64,000 nt of DNA from Halichoerus grypus (Eukaryota > Chordata > Mammalia > Carnivora > Phocidae), in the NCBI RefSeq assembly GCF_964656455.1, contig NC_135713.1, forward strand, positions 189,528,187 to 189,592,186. Reading direction: 5' to 3'. The position numbers and the translations under genes were made by a program. The stretch's first letter is position 1; each line of letters starts with the position of its first letter. This document shows positions 6,692 to 63,806 of this stretch, piece after piece. Below the pieces are notes generated by a model that ran no database searches, was not told where the DNA came from, and saw nothing but the letters and a program-made list of their open reading frames with translations.

Positions 6692-6700
6692 TTCCAAGAA
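6692..6700. promoter_or_regulatory. STAT-type motif TTCCAAGAA in STAT5B intron
   Basis: A palindromic-class STAT5 site in a stretch free of SINEs (6180-7015). Similar TTCTGAGAA sites occur at 27981-27989 and 29954-29962. Chance occurrence is plausible. Confidence 0.2.
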
Positions 6701-7015
6701 CAGAAAAGAAATACTGTAGGGAAATCTTGCTAAGGAAACCCCGAGATAATTCTCCCGACGCTACTCTCTATATCTTTTCTGCACATCAACACTAATGCTC
6801 ACCCAACAACCTTTACTATCAACAGTAAATACTAGGAGAGAAACCAATAATACATTGGAAAAGCACACCTATCCAGTGAACCCCAACTAAATGGAGAACA
6901 CAGTATTCTGCTCTCTTTTCATGTAGCTGTGCTCTCTGCATTTACCAATTATCATAATCGACTTCATTTTTGCTTACAGTTACTTGAATATAAATCATTT
7001 CAAAAAACAAAATAA

Positions 7016-7230
7016 GGGGCGCCTGGGTGGCTCAGTCGTTAAGCGTCTGCCTTCGGCTCAGGTCGTGATCCCAGGGTCCTGGGATCGAGCCCCGCATCGG
7101 GCTCCCTGCTCAGCGGGAAGCCTGCTTCTCCCTCTCCCACTCCCCCTGCTTGTGTTCCCTCTCTCACTGTGTCTCTCTCTGTCAAATAAATAAATAAAAT
7201 CTTTAAAAAAAAACAAAAAACAAAAACAAA
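7016..7230 (+). mobile_element. CAN-SINE
   Basis: Consensus-like young copy; a second copy has landed in its A-rich tail. Confidence 0.94.
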
Positions 7231-7238
7231 AAAAATAA

Positions 7239-7455
7239 GGGGCGCCTGGGTGGCTCAGTCGTTGGGTGTCTGCCTTCGGCTTGGGTCATGGTCCCAGCGT
7301 CCTGGGATCGAGCCCCGCATCGGGCTCCCTGCTCCACGGGAAGCCTGCTTCTCCCTCTCCCACTCCCCCGGCTTGTGTTCCCTCTCTCGCTGTGTCTCAC
7401 TCTGTCAGATAAATAAATAAAATCTTTAAAAAAATAAATAAAGAAATAAAATAAA
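7239..7455 (+). mobile_element. CAN-SINE
   Basis: Second of a direct pair, inserted at the A-rich tail of the first; AAAATAAGG precedes both. Confidence 0.93.
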
Positions 7456-7701
7456 ATATGAACCTAAATAGGTTTTGGTTAAAATAATGGAAGACTAAAA
7501 TCCTCTCTTTAAGAGAGAGCCGTCCCATCAGCTGGTTCCTTCGTTACTCACTGGCTGATACTCCACTTGTGAAGCCCAGCTGCAGCTTTCGTGAAGATAA
7601 TGTCAATGTGTGGGGTGTAATACTCACTGTGTTTCAGTAAAACAAGTCCTGTAGAAAAGATGGTCCAACAATGGGTAGCAGGTATATTAAGCTAATTCTG
7701 A

Positions 7702-7925: not shown

Positions 7926-8096
7926 TTTTTAAAAAAGATTTTATTTATTTATTTGAGAAAGAGAGACAGAGAGAGCATGAGTGGGTGGGGGGAGAGGGAG
8001 AGGGAGAAGCAGGCTCCCCACTGAGCAGGGAGCCCAACATGGGGCTCGATCCCAGGACCCCAAGATGCTTAACCGACTGAGCCACCCAGGCGCCCC
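7926..8096 (-). mobile_element. CAN-SINE
   Basis: Reverse copy with target duplication ATGAAATGACATTT / ATGAAAGGACATTT, 25 bases after a forward copy. Confidence 0.93.
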
Positions 8097-8504
8097 ATGA
8101 AAGGACATTTAAATAAAAAGTTCACGTCTTAGAAAATCAAAATGTTTGGCCTCTCAGGAAAAAAGGTTGTCCAGGATAAGAGGTACTACTGATACCAAGA
8201 CGTTTAACACTGAGATGAATTAAAATTGTGCACAAAGTAACTGTCCACGTTTACCACAGCATTAACACTGGGACTCTGCAATACAATACAAATACTTTTG
8301 CTAAAACAAACTACTTTTTCCAGAAACACGTTCTTCCTTGCTACATATTGACCAGGATATCTACACAACTTAGCACTGTGAACTTGAATGCTTGTTCCTA
8401 CACCACAGAACAGAGGCAGTGAAAGACTCCCGCCTCTTAACTAACAGCTTGCGCCTCAAGACATCAGCCAGGATAACGGTGGTGCGTATGTTCTTTCACA
8501 GGCT

Positions 8505-8608
8505 GCACTGTTACAGGAAGAAGCAAAGAGCAGCGATTTCCTTCCAAAAGGTCAGCTGCCTCAGACAGACCAAACAGAAAGCAGTTAATTCTTGCCAACT
8601 TCCCCTCC
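8505..8608 (-). promoter_or_regulatory. STAT5B: Inverted paralogue of STAT5A exon 1
   Basis: Read on the minus strand, 8573 to 8511 aligns without gaps to 45296-45358 of STAT5A exon 1, with 53 of 63 bases identical. Similarity continues upstream to the GGAGGGG..TTGGC box (8594-8608 against 45262-45276) and downstream to GTAACAG. The shared core includes AGGCAGCTGACC, GGAAATCGCTGCTCT and the ETS-like CTTCCTGT. The surrounding DNA here is CpG-poor. It may be an ancestral or alternative STAT5B first exon or a retained regulatory element; no clear donor follows it. Confidence 0.7.
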
Positions 8609-9330
8609 TGCTTCTGCAGCTAGTACGCAAGAGCATTTGGTTTCCAGTAAAGCTCCAGAGAAAAACAAAGCAAGTGTGAGACCCAGAACCGAGGCAATCT
8701 AAAGTGTCTCACTTGACAATAAGACAATAAGATCACATGGAGCTACACTTTTTAAATGGCAATGGAACTTTTAAGAGCTACCAGATTTAATGAGGCTTAA
8801 ATATGAGGAAAAGAACAGAATTGGAACCATCCCAGATTTTATACTAGTGCTCCAGAGTTCACCTAAAAATAAAATGGTATTTTGGCTATAATAAATGTGA
8901 CAACATATGAGGTCCCCAGTTGATTGATATAAAAATAAACCTTTAGCCTTCCTCTTCTCAAACTAAAGTCCTATTAGTCGTCAAACATGCTAAGACACCG
9001 GCCAGATTCAATGCTGACAATCAGTAGCATAAACAAGCGTGCACACAGTGATTATATAGTTTCTTAGATCAGACATGGAAAAAAGACTATATGACTAATA
9101 ACAAAAAGAAGAGAACAGAAAATAAGATTTAAAATCTTCTTTAGGTAGTGACCCTGAATAGTTATGGAATAATACTGAAGATCTCCCACCCCCCAAAGAA
9201 ACAACACAGCATTCTCACATAGACTTCTTTAAATTAAGCAAGCATCCATACATTCAATCTTTCTAGAGGCAACAAAATTAGTCCTTTTGAGTATAAAAGT
9301 AAAGGAGAAGGAAGGAAAAATGAAGACTTT

Positions 9331-11690: not shown

Positions 11691-12902
11691 GGTAGACCTC
11701 CATGTTACAAAAAGAACCTAAACTGGGGAAAATTAATGGTAGGTCAGTTATTCTCTTCAAGATGTTATTTTTGACACTGTGGAAGTCATTAACTTGAATC
11801 CTTATTACAGGAATAATGGGACTGAATCACACTTTATACAAACTGTGACGGAGGTTTTGACTCATCGTTGGTGCTAATCAAGACAAATATAATCGCCATG
11901 TTCCATTCCATAAACATCATGACAAGTTTGTAAAATAGAGCTAACACCTCATCGCAGCAATTTCAAAGAGGAGAATTACATGAAATACGATGGTGCTAAT
12001 ACAAGCTGAAATTCCAAAGAAAGCTTCTCCTTTATGCAAACTAAACTGTTTCTTTCCTTTAATTATGTCTCAAAAAAGAAGCTGAGTATAAACGGAAAGC
12101 ACAACATTTATCAACAATTCACTCCTTCAGTTACCATGCATACTACCAAATACAATCCAGAAAGATTTATGATTGTGCCAAAACAAGATGATGAGGTTCT
12201 ACATCCAGAATGTAGATTAACGTTAGAAGGATGACTCAGGACTAATGCCATCGGTCTGATAGACACTGAACCTATTTTTTAATCTCCTGAGAGTTCTTCA
12301 ACCATGGGACTGAATGCCAACTCAGGGAGATATTTCAGTAAATACAGCCACCTTTGACTACAGACTATTTTTTATTTGAGATGTCATTCCATGAAGCAAA
12401 GTAAATTTAGTAAGTGAAAATATAGTCTTGAATTCTTATGGATGTCCCCTACCCCTGCCAAAAATGACAAGCTGCTTGCTCAAAAGCTGTCACTAATTAG
12501 CAGCTGCTGCTGTAAAGAAAACCAAAGTAAGTGCCAATAAAAGCATATTGAACTGCAAGAGGGCCCTATGACAAGGAATGGAAGATGTAAGAAGCTATTT
12601 GTGACCAGTAAACTTTATAAATACTGCCAATCTAAATTTGGAAGAAGTGGGGGCAGGGCAATAATTGCAATATATATCCATTCATATTTAAACAAGGACT
12701 GGAATATTCTCCTAACATTCTGAAAGTCATATAAATCCCAGAATACTGAGGTTACTGAATTCCATGACAACTACTTCCACCTTTCTAACAGAAATCAATC
12801 TTGGTTTTGTAATTTCTCATTGTCAATACTTCTGTCTCTGGCACAGTAACACAAACAGCATTTGTAGACATCAAAAAAATTGAATTTAAAAAACACCTTT
12901 CA

Positions 12903-13006
12903 GGGGCACCTGGCTGGGTCAGTCAGTACAGCACACAACTCTTGGTCTCAGGGCTATGAGTTCAAGACCCACATTGGGTGTAGAGATTTCTTAAAAACAA
13001 AATCTT
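12903..13006 (+). mobile_element. Old short CAN-SINE
   Basis: Older subfamily: GGGGCACCTGGCTGG head, AACTCTTGGTCTCAGGG middle, TTGGGTGTAGAGATT end, without the long TC-rich 3' part. Confidence 0.85.
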
Positions 13007-13007
13007 A

Positions 13008-13375: not shown

Positions 13376-13717
13376 CTTTACTGGCCCTATGTTTAATGTT
13401 CTGATTAAGAGGCTCTAAAATAGTCCACAGATTAAGATCCTGCTTGAAATCTAAATTGCATTGGTTGCTTTTCAAATCATTCTCCAAGGCTCTCCGTCTT
13501 ACCCATCAGCTCTCACAGTATATATCTTTTTTCTCTCAACACGTTAGTTTCTGTCCTTTAAAACAATTAGGGATATTTCCTCCTTCAGTTTAGTTCTCTC
13601 ACTCTCTTTCTCCCTATCCTTCCAGGTAGCCTGATAGAGAGCCGTGACTATTTTATTTATACTTGGGCCATAGGGTCTGCTTGTCTCTGTAGCAACTACT
13701 CGGAAAAATGAGAATGA

Positions 13718-13920
13718 AAAAGAAGGAAGGAAGGAAGAAAAGGGAGGGGAGGGGAGGGGAGGGGAGGGGAGGGGAGGGAAGGAAGGAAGGAAGGAAGGAA
13801 GGAAGGAAGGAAGGAAGGAAGGAAGGAAGGGAGGGAGGGAGGGAGGGAGGGAATGGAAAGGAGGGATGAAGGGATAGACTGGAAAAAGAAGGAAAGGAAA
13901 GGAAAGGGAGGGAAGGACAA
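13718..13920 (+). repeat. Polypurine tract with GGGGA and GGAA repeats
   Basis: About 200 almost pure purine bases: AAGG units, then GGGGA repeats (13743-13777), then about 11 GGAA units, GGGA units and AAAGG units. GGAA arrays can bind ETS factors and such tracts can form triplex DNA; neither is shown here. Confidence 0.9.
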
Positions 13921-14374
13921 GGAAGATATAATGAGAAAAGAAAATAGAAAAGAAACAAGTTATGAGCATAATTTCTTAATGAAGCTACAATCAAAACCTC
14001 CTCTCTTGCAGTTGTTGTCCCTTATGTAGAGTTTGCCTTAGTGTCTGTATAAACAATTACAACAATGTACCAGTAATTTTCCAGTTCATCATCAGGCTAA
14101 AAGAAGGAGAACAATTTGCTTTATGAAACATGGAGAAAGACTAATCTCTGCTATTACTGTCAGTGCAGGTTTATCAGCAAGACCTGGAGGAGATAAGCCT
14201 ACAGACATAAAGATTAGGAATCACATTTTCAAAGCCTTAATAACCCCCTAGTGGTATGCAACAAGCTGCTGAATTAACTTGTCTTTGGATACTTATTTTG
14301 TATGCATCACTGGCTAGGTCTAGGTACAGAGCAAAAACTAAAAAATCTGGGGAAAGAAAAGAAAAAAGAACCAG

Positions 14375-22797: not shown

Positions 22798-22899
22798 AGG
22801 TGCCTGGCTGGCCCCGTCGGAAGAACATGCAACTCTTGAACTTGGGGTTGTGAGTTCAAGCCCCACATTGGGTGTAGAATTACTTTTAAAAAAATCTTG
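22798..22899 (+). mobile_element. Old short CAN-SINE
   Basis: Older subfamily; ends TTGGGTGTAGAATTACTT. Confidence 0.85.
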
Positions 22900-34765: not shown

Positions 34766-35774
34766 CCACTTTTAGTACTGTTTATTAGAATCAAAGGTCT
34801 GACAGGATCATGGGGGACAAGAAGAAAAAGAACTGGGAAGGATCGCTATCTCCTTTTGCCTTTCACATTCTTGTGGTTTTCATTAATCCCCATCTTCCTA
34901 AAAGCTGGCACTTGTTTTTCTTCTTTGCCTTTTCCATCACTGCTAGCTACAAGTGTTTGCAAACGCCTCTTGCTCCACACAAGTTCTTCCCTCTTTGATC
35001 AGCCTGATCATCTTGCCAGATTCCTTTAGCCTTAGACCGGCTTTTGTGACACCACAACTCGCCTTCCGACTCTCCCTATCTACCCCCGACACCAGGAGCA
35101 CTTTTTTACTCTTTATCCCCGGCTAGCAAAAAAAAAAAAAACAAAAAACAAAAAAAACATGCTGCATCCCACTGCCACACGCACCAGCCGGGGCCTGGCG
35201 GGTCCTGATGTGGGATCCCGCACCCCAAAGCCATATCGAAACGTTCGTATTTGTTGTCTTGACTCCATATAAGGCACTGTTCCTTGAGGCTTGCCTAACA
35301 CCCCCCACCCCACCGGGCACCCCCGGGCTCATCCCACCCCGGGGAGTCGCAGATCCCTCTTTTGAAAAAGGAAAAGCAAGGAGACGCCTGGGGTTACTCG
35401 GCACTGCAACCCGGGGGTGTGAGGTGGCCGACAGCAGTCCCCTCCTCTGGCAGGGGTCGGCGCCGGGGCCCCTCACACGCCCACCTCGACACACGAGCCC
35501 GCACGGTCCCCACACTCGACACCCTCCGCCCGCCACCGCCTCGGCACAACGCCCCTCGCGCGCCCCTAGCGCCCTCGCCCCCAGCGCCCCCGGCGCCCCC
35601 GGCACCCCCGGCCCCCAGCGCGCAGCCACCGCGGCCACCTCCTGGCCGGGGTAGCGATGGCGGCGGCGCGGCCCTGCCGGGCGTCTGGGCGGCCGGGGCG
35701 CGGGGCCCCGCCCGGGCGGGCTCCCCGGCCTCGCTCCCCGGCCCGGAGCCCAGGGCTCGCCCCACAGCTCCTAC

Positions 35775-35870
35775 CTCGCTCGGCACCTCGGGCGCCAGCC
35801 GCCACCGCCCGCCCGCTCCCTCCCTCGGCCGGGCCGCCGCGCGTAGTCGCCTGCGCAGGGTCCCCGCCCG
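35775..35870 (-). other. STAT5B: Possible STAT5B non-coding exon 1 (limits approximate)
   Basis: On the minus strand the sequence CGAG is followed by GTAGGAG at 35775/35774, the best-looking splice donor in the island. Upstream is GC-rich sequence typical of a 5' UTR. No protein-coding evidence is available and the transcription start is not visible. Other weaker donors exist within the island (for example near 35787), so the boundary is tentative. Confidence 0.4.
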
Positions 35871-36241
35871 GGGTGACGGCTCCCGCCGCCGAATCTCCTC
35901 ACGCCGGGGCCCGCGGGGGCGCGCGCGCTGCTCGCGCACCGAGGCCCGAGCGCGCCCCGCGCCGGCGCGCGCCGCTTCCTGGTTCCGCCCGGCGCGCGCT
36001 CGTGAGCCCCGTGGTCCCCCGCACCCGGTCCGCGGCCGCCCTGGAGGGACCCGGAACCCCCCGGCGCGCACGGGGTGGGGGAGGGGGCGGGCGCTGTGCG
36101 CAGCCCCTTGTCGCCGGGGCGAGTGGCGTCCCCTCTCGGCTCCCGAGGCGGGTCCCAGGGGGCCACGAGCACATGCTGCTTTGTTTGGGTCGGCTCGACC
36201 ACCACGAGCAGGGCTCGCGCCAGGCTGTTGTGATCGCGTTG

Positions 36242-36246
36242 ATTGG
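36242..36246 (-). promoter_or_regulatory. CCAAT box upstream of STAT5B
   Basis: ATTGG on the plus strand reads CCAAT on the minus strand, followed by AACGCGATC. It sits about 400 bases upstream of the proposed STAT5B exon 1, at the distal edge of the CpG island. A single motif, so weak evidence. Confidence 0.3.
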
Positions 36247-36268
36247 CCCCGCTCCGCGGCCCGCCACT

Positions 36269-36284
36269 CCCCCCCCCCCCCCCC
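36269..36284 (+). repeat. Run of 16 C
   Basis: Homopolymer at the distal edge of the STAT5B CpG island; its length may be unreliable in the assembly. Confidence 0.9.
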
Positions 36285-36499
36285 GCCCCGAGCTGAGGCC
36301 CGCGTTCCGGGTCCTGTCCCTCCCAGGCCCAGGTCAGAAGTCCACCGCTGCCCCATCAATAATTATCCCGGGTTTGCTCCCTGGAGGGCGTTTCAGCCAG
36401 GACTGCCGCTTACCACCCGGGCGGAAAGCCTGAATGGACACAGCAGGAGTTTACATTTGCCCAGGCCAACTGGATGCGTCCACGATTCCAGAGTAAATC

Positions 36500-36515
36500 G
36501 GGGGGGGGGGGGGGG
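36500..36515 (+). repeat. Run of 16 G
   Basis: Homopolymer followed by CGGGC, about 230 bases beyond the C run; can form G-quadruplex in principle. Confidence 0.9.
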
Positions 36516-37229
36516 CGGGCAAGGAGGAAGGGGCGTCTGACACCATTTCCCTCCCTGGGGACTCTTGCTAGCTCCCACCAGTGAGAGCTGCGGGGAGGAA
36601 CTGACTGCTCGTTAAGAGAAGCAAGAATAAACACGATCACTTTTATAAGATCCAGGGGAAAGGGGTCTCTGAGAGCCTTTTCCATGTAATGGGGAGGGGG
36701 TGTGGTGTCTGAGAAGGCAGCCTGAGTCACCCACTCTCCTCTCCTCTGGCTACATCTCTGGAGCTGGCCAGCCGTTTCCCTGGCAACCCTCCAAGGGCTG
36801 GCACCAAAGCGAGGCATGTCAGATCTCCAGAAACCTAGCTGCAGGGGCAGAAGGAGAAGGACCCCACACGTACCAGAACTTCCCTTCCTTACAGTCTGAA
36901 AATCTTCACGTCAAGAGATGACCAAGATCTGCAAGGCCCCAAGTTCTCCCATAATCCTCCTTTGGCAGCTCTCCTCCCAGCAGCCTTCCCTTCACCTCCA
37001 GAATAACACCAACCACAAAGATCTTTGTGTCTGTAGCTGATCTCAACAAAGTCCTCCCCCACCTAGGCAACTGCTTCTATCCCACACTTTGGGCCAACAC
37101 CTGGCACAGTGCTTTGCCCAGAGTAGATGCAGGGCACTTGGAGGCTAGAGCAGGAGGACAGGCTGGAGCAGGAAGCTGGACAGGAGCGCCAGCTCTGAGC
37201 TCTCTGGCACCTCTCTGACAGTCACTGTG

Positions 37230-39030: not shown

Positions 39031-39193
39031 AAATACATAGAATCTTTCTGGGGTGCACACAAGACCCAGGTAATTGTGGTTGCTCCTGCAGAGGGGATCT
39101 GGGGGGACGGGAAAGGTGAAAGACTAACTCTTTCCCATTTTGAATCTTCTGAGTTTTATGCCAGGGCTATACTACCTATAAGAACATTAGGAA

Positions 39194-39316
39194 GGGACAC
39201 CTGGCTGGCTCAGTCACAGGAGCATGTGACCCCTTGATCTTGGGGTCATGAGTTCGAGCCCTGTGTGGGGTGTAGAGATTATTACTTAAGTAAAACTTAA
39301 AAAACAAAGAAATAAA
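39194..39316 (+). mobile_element. Old short CAN-SINE
   Basis: Older subfamily flanked by ACATTAGGAA. The tRNA-like box B is intact (GAGTTCGAGCCC near 39250). One of only two SINEs between the STAT5 promoters. Confidence 0.9.
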
Positions 39317-40405: not shown

Positions 40406-41760
40406 TTTTCTCTACACTACCCTGACCCCATGAAAGATGAGCAGGATGTTACCAGGTGGCCAAGGGAGGACTGGCATTCCAGGGAGGTGGAATGAAAGGG
40501 GCAAAAAAAGCTTGGAGTGAGAGAGGCCAGGGCACTGGGGGGACTGCATGGCTGAAGAACGAGTAAAGAGAAGGCCATAGGTAGGCCGGAGCCCAGCAGC
40601 CAATGAAGAGCAGGCCAGTAGCCAGTGGGGAGGGGACGGAGCATTGGCCGAGTCTTCATTTTGGCTTTATAGCCCCCACTTGCTCTGGGCACTGGGGAGC
40701 CAATGTCGGAGGCTGGGAGCCGGGGAGCCAGCAGTGAAGGTGTGGGTGGGTTAGTGACATGATGAACCGAGGAACAATGAGAAACAGGGACAGGGAGAAA
40801 GGAGCTCCCTCTGGTCATAACAAAGGAAAGTGGCAGAGTGGTGGGGGTAGCAGGCCAGGAGATGCACAGTCCTCTCCCACGCACCCCTCTGAGGGCCTGA
40901 GGTTGGGTACTGGGCTGGCTCAGGCACGAAAGATTTCTTGTTGGTCTGGAAGGAGGAGAAATGAGTGAGTAGAGAGGCCTGGTAGTCCTCATGGAAGAGG
41001 ATGAGAGCCAGACGTGACCCAGGGCTGCTCAGGACAGCCGGCAGTCCCCCTGGGAGGCCCAGCTCTGTACCACCTCTCCCCTCTCCACCCCCTAGGCTCC
41101 AGGGCCTCCCCCTGCCGTGAGAAGGAAGAGCAAAGGATGGGCTCCTTCCCCGTTCTCCGACGTTGCACCCCCTCCTGTCCTTGTCCCATAGGTGGCTCTC
41201 CCAAGGCAGGTGGCTAGGGCAGCCAGACAAAGGAAGGCAGGCTTTCCCTCCCACCCACCCAGTCAGTCCTGAGCCCCTCCCACCCCTATTCCCAGAAACA
41301 GAGAAGAGTTACTGTGCCTCAGGCAGGATGGCAGTGTGTTCTCTTGGTAACTTCACTGTAAACTGACTTCCCTGAAGAGTGGTAGAGGACAAGGGACAGA
41401 GGCAGGAAGGGCAGACAGGCTTCACCGAGGATCCAGCAGCTTCTTCCCCTCCCCTCAATTCACACAGAATTACTCACGGCACACACACCCCTTCCCTAGG
41501 TCCTGCTCTGTCTTCAGGGACAAGAATGGAGGCAGCCTATCTATCCACAGGGAGGTACCAGGATAGGGAGACTGGGGAGAGGCAGGGACAGTGGTCTTGG
41601 GCGTGCAGTATATGCTGAGCATGGGCCTACGGCTCACCTTCCAAGAGCTTTGGGGCTGGGGCTAGAGAGGAGGTAGATAATCCCAGCAGAGGCAAGGTGA
41701 GGGAGAGCAGGGTGGTTAAGCCCAAGGGCTTCAGGTCTCCCTCTGTGGGCACAGAGATAC

Positions 41761-41790
41761 TTCCTGGAATGCCTCCAGCTTTCTTGGGAA
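41761..41790. promoter_or_regulatory. Paired STAT-type (GAS) motifs
   Basis: TTCCTGGAA at 41761-41769 is a perfect palindromic STAT5-type site. TTCTTGGGAA at 41781-41790 is a four-base-spacer variant, favoured by STAT6 but able to act as a weak STAT5 half of a tandem. The centres lie about 20 bases apart, a spacing compatible with tetramer binding. Binding itself is inferred. Confidence 0.4.
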
Positions 41791-45005: not shown

Positions 45006-45239
45006 TGGTTTGGGATTTCCAGAGCCCGGGGTTTCCCGGCTCTCCCACCCCCATCCCCGGCCACTCCAGCGCCTGCTGCCCGCCGGTCGGGGGCCCGCGG
45101 GCGAGGGCTGCCTGGGACTCCCGGGGGACCCCGCCGTCGGGGCAGCCCCCAGGCGCGGCGTCGCCCAGCCTCGCCGCCAGGGGCCCGGCCGCGGCCGCCG
45201 CTGCGCACTCGCGCGGGAGCCAGCGACCGAGGGCGGAGG

Positions 45240-45454
45240 CAGGGAGGGAGCGACAGAGGCTGGGAGGGGTGTTGGCGAGAGCTCGCGCGCTGTGTATGGT
45301 CTATCGGAGGCAGCTGACCTTCGAGGAGGAAATCGCTGCTCTCTGCTCCTTCCTGTAGTAACAGCCGCCGCCGCCGCCGCCGGGAGCGCGGCCCGGGAGC
45401 GAGAGCCGCGGGGCGGACAGCCGGCCCCGCCGCCAGACGGCTCGGCGCCACCAG
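45240..45454 (+). other. STAT5A: STAT5A non-coding exon 1 (5' end approximate)
   Basis: This is the predicted untranslated first exon inside the CpG island. The 3' boundary is a strong donor, CCAG then GTGGGT, at 45454/45455, and it pairs with the acceptor before 46249, ten bases upstream of the start codon. The exon contains a GCC-repeat stretch near 45364-45381 and one upstream ATG at 45296. The transcription start cannot be seen in the sequence; the left limit is a guess. The block 45262-45365 is duplicated in inverted orientation at 8505-8608. Confidence 0.75.
45296..45358 (+). other. Upstream ORF of 20 codons in STAT5A 5' UTR
   Basis: An ATG in a weak context (T at -3, G at +4) opens a 20-codon frame beginning Met-Val-Tyr-Arg-Arg and ending Cys-Ser-Phe-Leu before TAG, entirely inside predicted exon 1. 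No other ATG lies between it and the donor at 45454, so it would be met first by scanning ribosomes if transcription starts between about 45010 and 45296. Whether it is translated is unknown. The inverted paralogous copy keeps the frame length and a stop codon (TAA) but has TTG in place of ATG. Confidence 0.5.
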
Positions 45455-46258
45455 GTGGGTGGCCCGGCAGCGCGTCCCGAGCGGCGAGCGCGGAGATGGG
45501 GCCCTCGACTCCCACCCCGGGCCCCCGCGCCCCGGGCCCCGGAGCCCGACGGCCGGCCGGGGCGCGGGGACGGGTGTCCCGGACCGAGAGGGAGCTTTGG
45601 CGCGGGGCGCGGGACGCTGGACGCGGAAGGAAGGAGGGGGCCGCGGGGAGCAGGGGGCGCTGTCGGGCCGGACAGTGGGAGACCGTGGGGGCACGGCTGG
45701 GGGGCGCCGCCGTAGAGACAGCGTCTGTCACCCCAGCCCTCCCTCCTCAACCACCCCAGCCACGTGCCGGCGGTGACCGAGCCTTTCGGTGGGAGCCGTC
45801 GGTGCCCTAAGTTTGGGCTGGAATAACACCCGACCCCCCAGGCCAGAAATTGGGACTCGGGGCTTGAGGCGGGGTGGGGGTGTGTGTGTGTAGGGGGGTT
45901 CTTGCAGCCTTCCCCAGAGGGCCCGTGGGCCTCCGCGTCAAGTTTCTCTTTCAGTTTTCTAGCTGTCCCCCCTCTGGGGAAGCCCCGGTGGGGCGAGGGG
46001 AGAGGAAGAGGGGGAGGGCACCTGACTTTCAGGAGCCCCTCCCCAAGCCTCAGCGGGTTCCTTGTTGGAGGGCAGGGCGGCTGTCCCCTCCTCACCATCT
46101 TTCTTCCCGCACAGGAAAGCGTGTCTGTGGGAGGGGAGGGGCCTGGCCTGACCGCGGTCCAGGGATGGGTGGGCATGGCAGGGTCAGAGGCAGGCCCGGC
46201 CCTCTCTCCTGTCGAGGAGCCGCCTCTGCAGCCCTCGGCTCGCCCTAGGTGAACGGAC

Positions 46259-63806
<17,548 letters not shown>

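Follow-up and report, generated by a model that had tools for sequence, protein, structure and literature searches.

Much of the difference between STAT5A and STAT5B, whose proteins are nearly identical, probably lies in the place and strength of their expression. The locus analyzed here, a window of 64,000 nucleotides from Halichoerus grypus, raises a question that touches on this difference: why does a segment of STAT5A exon 1 recur, in inverted orientation, within the putative first intron of the neighboring STAT5B gene? The features discussed below, including this intronic copy (hereafter the block), are collected in Table 1.

Table 1 Features of the STAT5A/STAT5B window discussed in the text.
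Feature	Position	Strand	Basis
Paralogous copy of STAT5A exon-1 segment, in putative STAT5B intron 1 (block)	8512..8621	-	alignment, masked comparison
Core of the block, 53 identities over 63 ungapped bases; TTG in place of ATG, in-frame stop TAA	8511..8573	-	
CpG island taken as STAT5B promoter	35401..36700	.	inferred by position; GC 0.74, CpG o/e 0.85
Segment of STAT5A exon 1 matching the block	45249..45357	+	
20-codon upstream ORF in STAT5A exon 1, ATG to TAG	45296..45358	+	translation
Likely STAT5A exon-1 splice donor, CAG/GTGGGT, 5.94 bits	45455..45456	+	inferred; simple donor matrix
First coding part of STAT5A, start codon to inferred donor	46259..46386	+	Pfam STAT_int, donor 6.26 bits

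The right-hand gene of the window is identified by its sequence as STAT5A. Its first coding exon, with the coding start at 46259, matches Pfam STAT_int (E 1.1e-18), and an exon near 62.5 kb scores 103.9 bits against STAT5A and 90.6 bits against STAT5B in the Protein Data Bank; a likely exon 1 with a donor at 45455 was assigned from position and consensus. In an exact search with 16 STAT5 peptide words, every hit lay on the plus strand at or beyond 46286, and the left-hand gene had no match in the window. We infer that this gene is STAT5B because human STAT5A and STAT5B are described in excerpts of PMC9569778 as lying head to head within about 10 kb, and because a CpG island is found at 35.4-36.7 kb. 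To look for genes hidden in the intron, 10 of the 20 ORFs listed for 1-37000 with a length of 110 amino acids or more were scanned against Pfam, the others being 13653-14021 and nine that lie within the CpG island or touch it. Eight of the ten scanned gave no match, and two gave matches below Pfam's cut-offs.

The relationship of the block to STAT5A exon 1 is clear, and true paralogous homology, far beyond chance, is well supported by the alignments. Local alignment of minus-strand 8621-8512 with 45249-45357 yielded 84 identical columns out of 110 with one gap (76% identity), unevenly distributed, with 31/48 identical in the first columns and 53/62 in the last. In the core, minus-strand 8573-8511 matches plus-strand 45296-45358 at 53 of 63 bases without a gap, exactly as an earlier sequence-only reading of this DNA had claimed. 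That reading had also described weaker similarity over about 100 bases, which the 110-column alignment bears out. Exon 1 (45200-45460) reached a local score of 56 against the minus strand of 1-35000, compared with 18 against the plus strand; 100 dinucleotide shuffles of 1-35000 averaged 12.8 and never exceeded 16. The block itself was thus correctly recognized, whereas its limits, placed earlier at 8505-8608, are better drawn at 8512-8621 from the full local alignment. With up to 3 mismatches, the core pattern occurs only at these two places in the whole window (mean 0.00 in 100 shuffles), and two core patterns returned 0 matches in a prokaryote genome collection, as expected there.

A comparison of 37001-64000 with 1-37000, carried out after masking 13,301 bases that recur within the window, returned nine rows with E up to 0.05, among which the block ranked first (E 1.4e-16) and was the sole inverted row, the other eight being direct; the next inverted row had an E of 0.059. 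The unmasked comparison contained many SINE pairs matching in both orientations. We rejected the block as part of a repeat of the window, self-similarity masking touching neither copy. The interspersed repeats of the window presumably represent tRNA-derived SINEs of caniform carnivores, and a carnivore-type SINE is present at 7005-7434 in about 1.9 head-to-tail copies (period 223, 92% matches). Separately, one short repeat is common to 39193-39299, 22803-22898 and 12902-13007 in direct orientation; it seemingly lies outside the main SINE family and is probably an old interspersed repeat.

Beyond the block, the similarity ends. The 900-bp flanks showed no similarity, the best local score being 14 both upstream and downstream, a value reached by 36/200 and 22/200 Markov-resampled controls, respectively; the nearest 100-120 bp of each flank scored 6 and 6, reached by 268/500 and 454/500 controls. 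The adjoining non-coding DNA is therefore as dissimilar as had been claimed, and the block is an isolated island of similarity.

Similarity that drops sharply on both sides would suit an event later than the duplication, in which about 110 bp of STAT5A exon 1 were copied into the STAT5B intron by gene conversion or as a small insertion, and gene conversion is mentioned for a segment of mammalian STAT5 genes in excerpts of PMC3296744. Against such an event, 8300-8800 contains no run of 6 A or T, no direct repeat of at least 6 flanks the block, and the sense orientation of the block would have to be a one-in-two coincidence; the missing target duplication counts as weak evidence, a shared word of six being likewise absent from about 46% of control pairs of stretches. 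We consider this explanation very unlikely. A recent processed insertion, which the sequence-only reading had named as evidence that would contradict its proposal, was looked for, and neither poly-A nor a flanking repeat of at least 6 was found. A processed retrocopy, which would also be expected to continue across an exon junction, is disfavored: the similarity reaches only to 45357, short of the inferred donor at 45455, and crosses no junction.

The alignments are best read as homology that arose through the duplication of STAT5 in mammals. Excerpts of PMC12144074 describe eight Stat genes in a turtle, with Stat5 on the Stat3 chromosome, and by our own count from that text the turtle has one Stat5; excerpts of PMC3296744 place a local duplication of STAT5 on the lineage of mammals. 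Because the turtle has one Stat5, the block would most simply date from the mammalian duplication. Its orientation agrees with a divergent duplication, as was proposed from the sequence, in that each copy is sense-oriented relative to its own gene, provided that STAT5B runs leftward. Collectively, the block is probably what remains here of the 5' region of the common ancestor of the two genes, and it is plausible that the ancestral STAT5 first exon lay at the block and that the island at 36 kb is a newer distal start. The STAT5B-intron block was not named in the titles or abstract openings of the literature searched.

The core coincides exactly with an upstream ORF of STAT5A that precedes the STAT5A start and encodes the peptide MVYRRQLTFEEEIAALCSFL. 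The intron copy has TTG where this ORF has its ATG, and its frame remains open with a stop at the same place. The core changes number 3, 4 and 3 by codon position, and six of the 20 residues differ. A conserved upstream-ORF peptide in the intron copy was accordingly rejected, the start codon being absent and the changes being even over the codon positions, and peptide constraint on this copy is not indicated by the sequence comparison. In STAT5A itself, the upstream ORF at 45296-45358 (+) starts in the context GTGTATGG, which we take to be weak, and ends before the coding start; it may possibly act as a translational control element.

Being sense-oriented and homologous to a first exon, the block could also still serve STAT5B as an alternative promoter and first exon; a TATA-like TATAAAA lies about 220 bp upstream of it at 8837-8843 (-), on the same strand. 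This word is easily found by chance in an AT-rich intron. A working first exon needs a splice donor, and by a simple matrix, on which the STAT5A donors reach 5.94 and 6.26 bits, no donor of at least 2 bits lies on the minus strand from 8650 to 8000 (the best being 0.3 bits at 8254), that is, within about 620 bp on the sense strand; going downstream, the first such donor (2.8 bits) lies 994 bp from the block start, at 7627. Donor-less stretches are common in this intron (278/676 stretches of 512 bp), which limits the weight of this result. Around the CpG island taken as the STAT5B promoter (37200-34500), the best donor by the same matrix is 4.11 bits, so a weak true donor could be missed by it, and a weak donor at 8254 or a longer exon ending at 7627 near the block is possible. 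The CpG content argues in the same direction as the donors: the STAT5A segment has eight CpGs and the intron copy has one, at a shared place, and the CpG ratio of the intron copy is 0.40, reached by 24% of intron stretches and thus not enriched beyond intron level, compared with 0.95 around STAT5A exon 1. As a first exon, the intron copy now seems unusable, and the suggestion of an alternative STAT5B promoter at the block, raised in the sequence-only reading, gains no support from these results; we regard its present use as such as improbable.

Other functional signals were sought around the block. A bacterial-type promoter scan of 8300-9300, which is uninformative for a mammal, found 3 promoters compared with 2.2 expected. 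RNA hairpins were rejected after four folds across both copies (z -0.28 to 1.31, none notable), and Rfam returned 0 matches in the window at gathering thresholds.

The main rival to a retained regulatory segment is an inert relic, namely the ancestral exon 1 drifting neutrally in STAT5B intron 1 and visible only through the slow change of STAT5A exon 1. Such a relic would account for the missing ATG, the single CpG against eight and the lack of a good donor, and the identity of the core is expected for it as well: with STAT5A frozen, a neutral divergence of 0.2-0.25 per site gives at least 53/63 identities with P 0.44 to 0.19. Identity runs within the core are likewise no longer than chance (longest 16, P 0.43). 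At this divergence, however, paralogous flanks of at least 300 bp should still align. In our simulations, the STAT5A segment was frozen and the intron copy evolved neutrally, a joint fit being a block score of 56 with flank scores of at most 14; even rates and composition were assumed, whereas the STAT5A side is a CpG island with skewed composition. With 900-bp neutral flanks, joint fits were 0/300 at each of 7 divergences and 0/400 at each of 8 further settings, and with 300-bp flanks they were at most 4/400. With 100-bp flanks they rose to as many as 28/400; the limit of 14 was kept for these shorter flanks, for which 6 to 8 was observed, so that the counts are generous to neutrality.

These simulations suggest a slower rate of change in the intron copy than in its flanks, provided that homology once reached well beyond the block; for a short duplicated or converted piece, or for flanks that were replaced, neutral decay is sufficient in the model. 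Because up to 28/400 neutral trials fit with flanks of about 100 bp, constraint is not proven. The slower change that the simulations suggest for the intron copy nevertheless favors a retained regulatory element over an inert relic, which we judge to be unlikely.

In summary, we propose a model in which the ancestral STAT5 5' region, comprising the first exon and promoter-proximal DNA, was duplicated together with the gene in the mammalian lineage. STAT5A would have kept the segment as exon 1 within a CpG island, and the STAT5B start would have moved about 27 kb further upstream, so that the segment now lies sense-oriented in STAT5B intron 1. There, the intron copy may have been kept as a cis-regulatory DNA element through transcription-factor sites shared with the STAT5A promoter. 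We infer the ancestry at the gene duplication, STAT5B as the host, constraint on the intron copy and the regulatory role; for the whole explanation, an ancestral remnant retained as an intronic cis-regulatory element, our confidence falls a little short of even. A more specific form, in which a cis-regulatory module shared by STAT5A exon 1 and STAT5B intron 1 predates the duplication and is still active in both genes, with the ancestral core promoter of STAT5B turned into an intronic enhancer and a new distal CpG-island promoter, is conceivable but somewhat doubtful.

STAT5A exon 1 is the closest system for comparison, aligning with the block over 110 columns at 76% identity and in the same sense relative to its own gene; it has a CpG island, the upstream-ORF ATG and a good donor, whereas the intron copy is without all three. 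Human STAT5B reportedly has an alternative tissue-specific promoter, going by the title of Ambrosio 2002. The block would resemble it in being an additional STAT5B start, but it has neither a good donor nor a CpG island.

Between STAT5A and STAT5B, a STAT5-driven autoregulatory enhancer is described (Metser 2016, via excerpts of PMC9569778). As far as those excerpts go, it is like the block in being regulatory DNA of the same locus and differs in being intergenic and STAT5-driven, the block having no TTCNNNGAA site. No such site occurs in 8000-9200, the nearest being at 6692 and 12387. As a separate observation, three STAT-type TTCNNNGAA sites lie within 480 bp in the intergenic stretch 41289-41769, in the region where excerpts of PMC9569778 place the autoregulatory enhancer. 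Against a uniform null, these sites are not significantly clustered (P 0.098).

If one gene kept, and the other displaced, a promoter segment inherited from their common ancestor, this segment would mark the regulatory split between STAT5A and STAT5B and would give a compact target for testing it. The general class to compare is that of paralogous conserved noncoding elements kept after gene duplication. Known from one genome, the block resembles these elements in being a short noncoding island of paralog similarity between unalignable flanks.
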